DNA of 64,000 nt, from contig NZ_CP042176.1 of NCBI RefSeq assembly GCF_005937885.2, forward strand, positions 3,219,501-3,283,500, given 5' to 3'. A program made the position numbers and the translations under genes. Below, piece by piece: positions 26,975-32,693 of the stretch. This DNA is from Bradyrhizobium sp. KBS0727 (GTDB lineage Bacteria > Pseudomonadota > Alphaproteobacteria > Rhizobiales > Xanthobacteraceae). The first letter of the stretch is position 1, and each line of letters begins with the position of its first letter. Under the pieces are notes generated by a model. It was not told where the DNA came from. It was given only the letters and a program-made list of their open reading frames with translations, and did no database searches.

Positions 26975-27113
26975 TTCATTAAAATTCTATCTGATGACCG
27001 AACCGAGCGTTGGTTGGGGCCGTCGTAAGGGGAGGAATGGAGAACTGAGCAGGTGCACAATGAATGGGTGCGCCGCACAATGATCAGGCGGTCAATTCAC
27101 AACATTTGGACTT

Positions 27114-27204: not shown

Positions 27205-28089
27205 ATGAAACGTGGAATTACCGTTCTGCTTTCACTCTCCGTGCTACTCACGCTTGCGTACTTTACCGCGAGCAAGTGGGCTATCCGACATGAGACGATT
27301 TCGTTCCATGATCCGGCGCGCGACAACCGGCTGGTGGCGGTCGATATCGCGGTTCGATGGGACAAGGAAATGCAGGCCGATGCCGGCATGATCTCCTTGC
27401 CGGTCACAATCATCAACCACGGCAATACCGTCAAGCACACCGAGTATTCGTTCCTGGCCAACGTCTTTGCGGCGCGCGGCTATCTCGTGATCAGCCCCCA
27501 GCATGACCTGCCGACCGACCCGCCGATGGTGACCAAGGTCGGTGAAATCTATGTCGGCCGCCTGCCGCAGATCGAGCGCGGCGTCGCCAACATCCATTTC
27601 GCCATCAGGGAAATGAAAAAGATCCAGCCCAACGCCGACTACGGCCGGGTGACCATGGTCGGACATTCGATGGGCGGCGACATCACGATGTATTTCGCCA
27701 AACAATATCCCGACGAAATCAAGAAGGTCGTGACGCTGGATAATCTCCGCGTGCCGTTCCTGACCGAGGGCAAGTTCAAGATCCTGTCGTTCCGCTCGCA
27801 TGATACCGAGTTCAAGCCGGACCCGGGCGTCATTCCCGATGAGGATGAGTGCGAGAAGGCCGGCATCACCGTCGTGAATACCGCCTTCCAGCATAACGAC
27901 ATGCGCGACACCGGACCGGACGCGGCCAAGACCTCGATCCAGACCATGCTCGACAAGTTCCTGGAAGATACCGACAGCAGCGCGCTGAAGCCGGTGCCGA
28001 CCAAAGTGCCTGATGTGCTGACTATCAGCCCGGGACCGGTGCCGCTCGCGAGCAATTCGGCGCCGTCCAACAAACCGGTCGCCAACTAG
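27205..28089 (+). CDS. Membrane-anchored or secreted alpha/beta hydrolase
   Basis: 294 residues. An N-terminal hydrophobic helix (ITVLLSLSVLLTLAYFTA, about 4-21) is a signal or anchor. The alpha/beta hydrolase core shows VTIINHGNTVKHTEY (oxyanion region), the nucleophile elbow MVGHSMGGDITMYFA with Ser near 154, and a late His in FQHNDMRDTG. The C-terminal 40 residues are Pro/Ser/Ala-rich. Probably an esterase, lipase or depolymerase acting at the envelope; the substrate is unknown. The upstream EcfG-type promoter suggests induction in stress or stationary phase (inference). Confidence 0.82.
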   Translation: MKRGITVLLSLSVLLTLAYFTASKWAIRHETISFHDPARDNRLVAVDIAVRWDKEMQADAGMISLPVTIINHGNTVKHTEYSFLANVFAARGYLVISPQHDLPTDPPMVTKVGEIYVGRLPQIERGVANIHFAIREMKKIQPNADYGRVTMVGHSMGGDITMYFAKQYPDEIKKVVTLDNLRVPFLTEGKFKILSFRSHDTEFKPDPGVIPDEDECEKAGITVVNTAFQHNDMRDTGPDAAKTSIQTMLDKFLEDTDSSALKPVPTKVPDVLTISPGPVPLASNSAPSNKPVAN

Positions 28090-30021: not shown

Positions 30022-31890
30022 TCAGTTGCGGACGGTGATGCAGGAAATGTCGGCGCGCTTCAGCGTCTTGCAGACTGCTTCGGCCTGATCGCGCTCGAGG
30101 CCGGCGAAACGGGCACGGAACAGTTTGCGGTTGTCCTTGGCGACGACAGGCTCGGTGAAGGGGTCGGCCTTGCTCAGCAGGGCCGAAGCCTTGCTGCGGG
30201 CGAGGTCGATGCGCTGCTTGGCTTCGCCTTCGCTTTCCAGCGCGCCAACCTGGATGATCCAGCCGGTATGGGTTACGGCCGGAGCGACCGGCTTGATCGC
30301 GTCGTTCTGGGCGCGGGGCGCCGGATCGGCATAGGCCAGAGCTTGAGAAGAATTGGCTTGGGAAGAACTGGCCTGCGCAGAGCTGGCTTTCGAAGCGGCG
30401 GCCTGAGACGGGGCGGAGGCCACGCTGGAGGCGGGCAGGACGCCGAGCACGCCTTGCCCGGTGCCGTGATTGGCGGGCTGCGGCGGCATCTCGACCCGGG
30501 CCATTTCGGCCTTGTTGGTCTCGGTCGCTCTCGCCACCACGGCGCTGGAGGTCTCGGCGATTTCGGAGCGGGCCGGAATGGTGCTGGTGATCGGCGGCGC
30601 CGGCTGCGACGGGCCGGCGGATGCGAGCTTCATCGATCCTGCCTTGACCTGCACGGTCTTGACCTTGACCGGCTTCATCGGCTCGGCGGAGCCGGGGATC
30701 GCCGCGATCTGCTGGGTCTGGATCACGCCGCTGGTAAATTGTGCGGGCTCGGGCTTGGCTTGCGGCTCGAGCTTGGCCGGCGGCGGGGGCAGGGCCGCGG
30801 CGGCCGCCGCCATCAGTGAGGGCTTTGCAACCGGGCGTGCTGCGGCTTGCGCCGCCATTCCCGGCTCGGAGGCAGCGATCGCGCCATTGACCTGAGCCAT
30901 CTCAGTCGGCCGGGAAGCGGCTTCGGCCTCGGCCACGTCGGTATTGGCGTCGGCGGGGTTACGCTCGGTGATTGCGGCAACGGTGCGCCTGGTCGCGCCC
31001 TTTTCGAGGTTCTCGGCGAGCAGGTTGCGCATGATGGCGTCGCGCGAACCGCCGCTGCGGCCGCCCAGCACCACGCCGACCAGGTGGCGGTTGCCGCGGC
31101 GCATCGAGGTCACGAGGTTGAAGCCCGAGGCTCGGGTGTAACCGGTCTTGATGCCATCGACGCCTTCGACATTGCCGAGCAGGCGATTGTGGTTGCGGAT
31201 GGCCTGGCCGTGATAGTTGAACACCGAGGTCGAGAAGTAACGGTAGTAGCGCGGGAAGCGATCCTGGATCGCGCGGCCGAGGGTGGCCTGGTCGCGCGCC
31301 GTCGTTACCTGTTCGTCGTTGGGCAGGCCCGAGGCGTTGCGATAGGTCGTCTTGGTCATGCCGAGTGCGCGCGCCTTGCGCGTCATCATCTTGGCGAAGT
31401 CGTCTTCATCGCCGCCGATCGCTTCGGCGATCACGACGGCTGCGTCGTTGGCCGAGCGCGTGACGAGACCCTTGATGGCGTCTTCGACCTTGATGGTCTG
31501 GCCCGGGCGCAGGCCGAGCTTGGTCGGCGCCTGTTCGGAAGCGTGCTCGGACACGTCCATTTCGGTGTCGAGGTTCATCTTGTTGGCTTCGAGACGCTCG
31601 AACAGCAAATAGAGCGTCATGATCTTGGTCAGCGAGGCCGGGTGACGGCTGCCGTCGGGGTTGTTCGAGGTCAGCACCGCACCGGAATTGCCGTCGACGA
31701 TGATCGACGAAAATTGCGGGCTGTAGCTCTCGCTCGCAACGTGGCTGCGGTGATGGCTGGCGACGTGGCGATGCCGGTAGCGGCGCGCTTCGGCGCTGTC
31801 GCTCGTGATGAGGATCGCCGTCGTGAAGGTAGCCAGTCCGAGAACGCAAACTCGCAAGGTGCGCGAGGAAGCCAAGGTTGTGCGAAGCAT
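30022..31890 (-). CDS. D-alanyl-D-alanine carboxypeptidase with C-terminal SPOR domain
   Basis: 622 residues. The signal peptide ends near SAEARR (about 35). The S11 penicillin-binding domain has SxxK in PASLTKIM (about 86-89), SxN in TRSANDAAV (about 146-148) and KTG in GIKTGYTRASG (about 249), so it can trim the terminal D-Ala of peptidoglycan stem peptides. A very long Ala/Pro/Ser linker (about 330-535) leads to a SPOR domain (WIIQVGALESEGEAKQRI to the end), which binds denuded glycan at division sites. Location is periplasmic. The stretch ASSAQASSSQANSSQA in the linker is built from short imperfect repeats. A DacF/Dac-type role in septal remodelling is inferred. Confidence 0.93.
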   Translation of the reverse strand: MLRTTLASSRTLRVCVLGLATFTTAILITSDSAEARRYRHRHVASHHRSHVASESYSPQFSSIIVDGNSGAVLTSNNPDGSRHPASLTKIMTLYLLFERLEANKMNLDTEMDVSEHASEQAPTKLGLRPGQTIKVEDAIKGLVTRSANDAAVVIAEAIGGDEDDFAKMMTRKARALGMTKTTYRNASGLPNDEQVTTARDQATLGRAIQDRFPRYYRYFSTSVFNYHGQAIRNHNRLLGNVEGVDGIKTGYTRASGFNLVTSMRRGNRHLVGVVLGGRSGGSRDAIMRNLLAENLEKGATRRTVAAITERNPADANTDVAEAEAASRPTEMAQVNGAIAASEPGMAAQAAARPVAKPSLMAAAAAALPPPPAKLEPQAKPEPAQFTSGVIQTQQIAAIPGSAEPMKPVKVKTVQVKAGSMKLASAGPSQPAPPITSTIPARSEIAETSSAVVARATETNKAEMARVEMPPQPANHGTGQGVLGVLPASSVASAPSQAAASKASSAQASSSQANSSQALAYADPAPRAQNDAIKPVAPAVTHTGWIIQVGALESEGEAKQRIDLARSKASALLSKADPFTEPVVAKDNRKLFRARFAGLERDQAEAVCKTLKRADISCITVRN

Positions 31891-32170
31891 TTACTTCCCC
31901 GTCCCATTTCTATCTTGATCACCGGTTCGTGAGGCAAAATTGTGCCCGACGACCCCCGGTGTTTTCCTGCTCGAAGTGCCGATCCGGCCAAAACGCTAGG
32001 CCCGGTCGGCCGATCAGGCCGCTCTTCTAGCTAAGGTGCTGTTCACAAACAGCTTTCATGCTGCCTGTCGGAAGGCGAACAAGTCCAAGAATCAGGTTAG
32101 GCGGAGCGAGTTTCCAAAAGCTTAACGAACCGTTGCGTAACACCCCGGGGTTCTCAGCAAATTGACCGTA

Positions 32171-32221
32171 TTTGTGCGGCGCACAAAATTCCTTGACTTC
32201 ATTGTGCACTGCACATATAGA
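32171..32221 (+). promoter_or_regulatory. Phasin promoter with two PhaR-like operators
   Basis: TTGACT (32193-32198), 17 bases, TATAGA (32216-32221) is a good vegetative promoter about 70 bases before the phasin ATG. TTTGTGC-GGC-GCACAAA (32171-32187) is a perfect 7-bp inverted repeat just upstream of -35. TTGTGC-ACT-GCACAT (32202-32216) lies between -35 and -10. Both have the TGC-N3-GCA core that PhaR/PhbF repressors recognise. The rest of the 401-base gap up to the carboxypeptidase start shows nothing assignable. Confidence 0.72.
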
Positions 32222-32291
32222 AGTCGTGTCAGGGAGCCGGGACCTCCCGGCAATCGGTTTTGCACACGTTCAGTCTGGGAAAAAGGACTCC

Positions 32292-32633
32292 ATGATGGTC
32301 AAGGTTGAAGACATTCAGAACTACGGAAAAGAGCATCTCGAATCGGTTGCCGCTTCCGCGAGCAACCTGCAGAGCGGCGTTCAGGCGATCGCAACCGCCT
32401 ATGGCGATTACGCCAAGAAGTCGTTCGAAGACACCAAGTCGTTTGTTGAAAAGTTGTCCGGCGTGAAGTCGGTGGACAAGGTGCTGGAAGTGCAGACCGA
32501 GTTCGCGCGTTCGGCCTACGAGACCTTCGTCGCCGAGTCGCAGAAGATTGCCGGCCTCTACACCGATCTCGCCAAGCAGACCTTCAAGCCCTACGAGGGC
32601 CTGGTCGCGAAGTTGGTTCCGGCTGCGCAGTAA
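32292..32633 (+). CDS. Phasin family protein
   Basis: 113 residues from ATG at 32292 (a second ATG follows at once); AAAAGGAC lies 5-12 bases upstream. The amphipathic, Ala/Lys/Gln-rich helical sequence fits phasins: VEDIQNYGKEHLESVAASASNLQSGVQAIATAYGDYAKKSFEDTKS and EVQTEFARSAYETFVAESQKIAGLYTDLAKQTFKP. Phasins coat polyhydroxyalkanoate granules and control their number and size. The promoter carries two PhaR-like sites, so expression probably rises when granules titrate the repressor. A strong terminator follows. Confidence 0.92.
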   Translation: MMVKVEDIQNYGKEHLESVAASASNLQSGVQAIATAYGDYAKKSFEDTKSFVEKLSGVKSVDKVLEVQTEFARSAYETFVAESQKIAGLYTDLAKQTFKPYEGLVAKLVPAAQ

Positions 32634-32662: not shown

Positions 32663-32693
32663 AAAAAGCCCGGCCGTTACGGCCGGGCTTTTT
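32663..32693. terminator. Intrinsic terminator between phasin and tadG-like genes
   Basis: AAAAAGCCCGGCC (32663-32675), loop GTTAC, GGCCGGGCTTTTT (32681-32693): a perfect 13-bp stem with A and T runs, so it should work in both directions for the two convergent genes. Confidence 0.92.

Follow-up and report, generated by a model that had tools for sequence, protein, structure and literature searches.

The phasin locus and its promoter

The DNA analyzed here, called the window, is a stretch of 64,000 nucleotides from a Bradyrhizobium-type genome of 7.3 Mb. Its features of interest (Table 1) center on a promoter that lies between two divergent genes, one encoding a D-Ala-D-Ala carboxypeptidase and the other, directly downstream, a phasin. 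The protein scores 89.4 bits against PF09361 (cut-off 24.9) and is 93% identical to its nearest relatives; NCBIfam phasin models also match it, under their cut-offs. A search of a plasmid collection returned no match. Within the same window, a sequence resembling those discussed below, GGGTGCGCCGCACAA, occurs at 27066-27080, about 125 bp upstream of an alpha/beta hydrolase gene; its 12-mer TGCGCCGCACAA occupies 27069-27080.

Table 1. Features of the phasin locus, in positions of the window
Feature	Position	Strand	Basis and remarks
Alpha/beta hydrolase gene	27205-28089		PF00561; by reading of the ORF list, the phasin gene is four ORFs away
D-Ala-D-Ala carboxypeptidase gene	30022-31890	-	PF00768
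Distal predicted PhaR operator, TTTGTGC-GGC-GCACAAA	32171-32187	.	Read directly; upstream of -35
-35, TTGACT	32193-32198	+	Read directly; 5/6; conserved in the anchored set (columns 21-26)
Proximal predicted PhaR operator, TTGTGC-ACT-GCACAT	32202-32216	.	Read directly; in the spacer, touching -10
-10, TATAGA	32216-32221	+	Read directly; predicted -10; 4/6; spacer 17
Leader hairpin, GCCGGG-ACCT-CCCGGC	32236-32251	+	GC-rich; close to the 5' end of the leader
Phasin gene, 113 aa	32292-32633	+	PF09361, E = 1.9e-25; ATG at 32292 or 32295; assigned as PhaP1 orthologue
Probable intrinsic terminator of the phasin gene, AAAAAGCCCGGCCG-TTA-CGGCCGGGCTTTTT	32663-32693	+	Seen in the sequence; ends approximate

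The promoter is accompanied by two palindromes with the core TGC-N3-GCA, which an earlier note on this DNA had likened to the core of PhaR and PhbF repressors (PhbF being that of Herbaspirillum). The note had described the distal palindrome as a perfect 7-bp inverted repeat beside a good -35, and that is what is found: TTTGTGC (32171-32177) and GCACAAA (32181-32187) enclose GGC, and the site matches TTGTGC-N3-GCACAA in 12 of 12 positions. The proximal palindrome, with arms TTGTGC (32202-32207) and GCACAT (32211-32216) around ACT, is perfect over only 5 bp (TGTGC/GCACA), its outer T/T being unpaired. It had been placed inside the promoter spacer, and its sequence and place are as described, except that its last base is also the first base of the -10, so the site is not wholly within the spacer. 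The two 15-mers, TTGTGCGGCGCACAA (32172-32186) and TTGTGCACTGCACAT (32202-32216), start 30 bp apart with the -35 between them. If the sites are counted as 12-mers, as in published work (32175-32186 and 32205-32216), the -35 sits 6 bp from each. The consensus derived from PhaR footprints in B. diazoefficiens, TGCRNYGCASMA, is matched by the distal site in 12 of 12 positions and by the proximal site in 11 of 12 on the plus strand and 12 of 12 on the minus strand.

A simple promoter scan returned TTGACC/CAAAAT (32162-32189) in place of TTGACT/TATAGA, which it missed because it requires T as the last base of the -10. The scan's candidate was rejected, as its -35 columns reach about 0.1-0.4 bits when the anchored relatives are compared, whereas TTGACT is conserved.

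The 5' ends of phasin leaders form a stem of at least 6 in 50 of 70 distinct sequences, as against 102 of 1400 shuffles. RNAalifold found no consensus hairpin in 72 distinct leaders (energy -0.9, covariation term positive). Some variants of the leader hairpin preserve pairing (GTCGGC/GCCGAC). The probable terminator downstream of the gene is not among the entries of a pattern scan of the window.

Conservation of the operator pair

Of 81 Bradyrhizobium-group promoters, 80 retain both operators by a rule demanding at least 9/12 at each site; the promoters are those of the window and of the 80 loci that ranked best among 218 relatives. Control pieces from the loci gave 0 of 3632. The single promoter that fails (L057) has a shifted proximal core. 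The distance between sites is nearly fixed, at 30 in 53 promoters, 29 in 20, 31 in 6, and 32 in 1. Within the 53 promoters with spacing 30, the distal arms average 1.96 bits and the proximal arms 1.66, against 0.38 for 45 upstream columns, a contrast that is exaggerated, since the set was anchored on detected sites and the upstream sequence was not realigned. In 78 of 81 rows, a -35-like hexamer lies 5-7 bp past the distal 15-mer and 2-5 bp ahead of the proximal one, by a search that is biased in that it picks the best hexamers. In the other three rows (L060, L070, and L081) the anchor fell on the proximal site, and these rows too hold both sites.

The proximal site is the more variable of the two. 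Its outer edge is asymmetric across relatives, mostly CTA or CAT, as expected if that edge must serve the -10 as well. Also, in 18 of the 81 promoters, mostly from a B. elkanii-like group (L024, L040, L042, L043, L046, L048-L056, L058, L059, L061, and L063), its second half is GCG (GCGATA or GCGGTA) and not GCA, and there the distal site is near perfect.

The pair extends beyond the genus. In a survey of the family covering 69 of the 103 other genomes with a match, 52 of 69 promoters have it, 4 of them from the same genus. Among other genera of the family, the count is 48 of 65 promoters, in 23 of 29 genera. The remaining 17 of the 69 lack the pair by the rule used, and PhaR is present in all 17 genomes. 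Testing the co-occurrence of the pair with PhaR over the 69 genomes gave nothing and is uninformative, because 68 of the 69 encode PhaR. The exception (G152) has no PhaR match yet has both sites; perhaps there is a gap in the assembly.

Rarity of the pair

The core by itself says little. TGC-N3-GCA occurs 42 times in the window as compared with 31.7 +/- 5.6 in shuffles, i.e. near background, and the genome has no excess of the single 12-mer YGCRNYGCACAA (27+24, versus 27+27 for the reversed control pattern). On these grounds the core alone was set aside as evidence. The longer pattern TGTGC-N3-GCACA is found at 8 places in the 7.3-Mb genome (control pattern, 2), and the pair is rarer still: in Markov-random sequence, the number of pairs expected per 64 kb, with both sites at 11/12 or better and 25-36 bp apart, is 7.8e-6 if the model is trained on the window and 2.2e-5 if it is trained on the intergenic stretch. 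One might suppose from the background level of the bare core that functionless inverted repeats happen to stand beside a promoter. With about 1e-5 pairs expected per 64 kb, and with the pair conserved in nearly every promoter of the Bradyrhizobium group, that supposition deserves practically no credence.

Comparison with known PhaR-regulated promoters

The paired arrangement of operators is already published. In B. diazoefficiens USDA110, where the PhaR consensus was derived, PhaR gives DNase I footprints at two sites in the phaP1 (bll5155) promoter, 6 bp upstream and 6 bp downstream of the -35; in a phaR mutant, phaP1 expression rises from 215.67 to 10,738.12 RPKM, about 50-fold, and PHB abolishes the binding of PhaR in vitro (PMC6201568). 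The two boxes are described elsewhere as 17 nt apart, on both sides of the -35, with the proximal one overlapping the -10, and both were mutated, either mutation weakening binding (PMC10888616). The promoter in the window is alike in having two boxes around the -35, the proximal over the -10, the same consensus, a phasin gene, and a hydrolase gene with a box nearby. It differs in the 18 nt between its 12-mers and in bases of the central three and of the proximal outer edge.

The boxes of phaP1 are given as TGCGACGCACAA at -101 and TGCGTTGCACTA at -72 (PMC10888616, Table 1), and one of the relatives considered here (L092) carries both at exactly these positions. Also, bll5160, an alpha/beta hydrolase gene that is activated by PhaR and has a PhaR box, is five locus numbers from bll5155 (PMC6201568). 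The hydrolase gene near the phasin gene in the window thus shows a synteny that agrees with orthology. Judged by geometry, the site sequences of relatives, and neighboring genes, the phasin gene of the window is the orthologue of USDA110 phaP1. The second phaP1 box appears in the literature in three forms, TGCGTCGCACAA in the text of PMC6201568, TGCAACGCACAA in its Table 2, and TGCGTTGCACTA in PMC10888616; TGCAACGCACAA and TGCGTTGCACTA fit one site on opposite strands, and TGCGTCGCACAA is the distal site on the other strand.

The studied genome has a single PhaR gene (PF07879, 2.7e-30; TIGR01848, 152.8 bits, cut-off 109.45), which adjoins an ORF that by eye is thiolase-like. A sequence search of the PDB found no relative of PhaR. 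Since TGC-N3-GCA is short and common, the palindromes might in principle serve another regulator that recognizes it, PhaR playing no part in the studied strain. This seems very improbable, considering that the footprints and the box mutations on the orthologous promoter were done with PhaR (PMC6201568, PMC10888616) and that the genome encodes the protein. The earlier identification of the sites as PhaR-type operators is thus borne out by their fit to the consensus, the conservation of the pair, the PhaR gene, and the footprints on the orthologue.

Similar arrangements are known further afield. In S. meliloti, the -35 of phaP1 and that of phaP2 are each flanked by two palindromes that are bound by PhaR (AniA), and the shifts disappear when the palindromes are mutated; the site offset is 18 bp in phaP1 and 28 bp in phaP2, compared with 30 bp in the window (PMC12542648). 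The proximal site of phaP2, TTGTGCAGTGCACATAGA, resembles the proximal site of the window plus the -10, and each S. meliloti pair includes one site with less perfect arms (PMC12542648). In Paracoccus denitrificans and Rhodobacter sphaeroides, PhaR recognizes TGC-rich boxes, so that a repeated TGC element recognized by PhaR is common to these two and the window (cited in PMC10888616).

Either S. meliloti copy alone is enough for binding in EMSA (PMC12542648), so a requirement for both sites is not general. Together with the lesser conservation of the proximal site and its GCG half in 18 of 81 promoters, this might mean that one site alone matters for repression, the other being a relic or shaped mainly by the constraints on promoter sequence. 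In the Bradyrhizobium group, however, conservation in the arms of the two sites greatly exceeds that of the upstream flank, and mutation of either USDA110 box weakened binding (PMC10888616), which makes a single effective site unlikely.

The proposed switch

The interpretation that we favor, with a probability of about 0.94, is that the promoter in the window is a phaP1-type phasin promoter under the PHB-sensing repressor PhaR. The sites, their geometry, their conservation, and the presence of PhaR in the genome are established here. By analogy with the orthologue, PhaR of the studied strain would be expected to bind both sites, to repress the gene, and to be released by PHB. In the absence of PHB, PhaR would occupy both palindromes, which lie around the -35 at a distance of about three helical turns from each other, and would keep RNA polymerase off the -35 and the first part of the -10. 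Together the sites take in the sequence around the -35 and extend to the -10, so bound PhaR should exclude the polymerase. Once PHB granules form, PhaR would bind the polymer and leave the DNA, and phasin would be made until the granules are coated, when PhaR would again be free to repress. These last steps, release by PHB and renewed repression upon coating, follow from published work on the orthologue (PMC6201568). The tight repression released by granules that the earlier note had predicted is therefore documented for the orthologue and would apply to the studied strain by extension.

PhaR of B. diazoefficiens is mainly a tetramer in solution (PMC10888616). With the near-fixed spacing of 29-31 bp, the two sites look toward nearly the same side of the helix, an arrangement that would suit one tetramer gripping both, and perhaps a single PhaR tetramer bridges the pair.

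The phasin promoter by itself, a well conserved and ordinary switch, alters no existing view. What the survey adds is that the operator pair footprinted at phaP1 in one soybean symbiont occurs generally in its family, at nearly fixed spacing, so that PhaR control of phasin may be predicted from sequence. The spacing rule also yields a new candidate target, urtA.

A second pair upstream of urtA and other sites in the genome

The earlier note had proposed looking through the genome for further pairs ahead of other pha genes. The relaxed pair pattern occurs at only two places in the whole 7.3-Mb genome (control, 0): the phasin promoter, which accounts for two of the three rows returned, one for each strand, and a region flanked by a permease-like gene and by urtA (TIGR03407), a gene of a urea ABC transporter. 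Three of the seven other phasin-like genes (L002, L003, and L007) have TGCRNYGCA upstream of or near the start, and phaR itself is preceded by weak matches to YGCRNYGCR, in keeping with the weak autoregulation of phaR reported for USDA110 (PMC6201568).

The urtA pair (L197, G000:C1:2221169-2221211, with L013) consists of TTTTGCGGTGCA and TGTGCACTGCACAA, 32 bp apart. Both sites are present in 26 of 30 loci of the genus (30 of the 34 matches were examined), and a looser score finds them in 5 of 16 other loci of the family. Compared with phasin promoters, the urtA pair has a less perfect distal site. The stretch between the sites is conserved too, and so another regulator may be involved. A link between PhaR and urea uptake is named in none of the titles and abstracts shown for ten of the 613 papers matched by a literature search, nor does PMC6201568 have words beginning with urea or urt. 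In S. meliloti, the urease subunits UreA and UreB fall in module 1, which holds proteins repressed by PhaR (PMC12542648), and this may bear on the case of urtA in a suggestive way. From its sites, urtA is possibly a candidate target of PhaR. Perhaps, then, a TGC-N3-GCA pair about three turns apart marks high-affinity PhaR control throughout the family, and the level of PHB directly gates urea uptake through PhaR, a tentative proposal that we consider somewhat doubtful. If it were true, carbon storage would be linked to nitrogen scavenging via PhaR at urtA.

The six places with TGTGC-N3-GCACA apart from the phasin promoter (L009, L010, L011, L012, L013, and L016) include one (L009) that lies inside an ORF. 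At L012 (1501-1513), the pattern is within a longer palindrome, CAATTCTTGTGCGCCGCACAAGAATTG, perhaps a terminator and not an operator. L010 precedes an ORF that resembles a response regulator.
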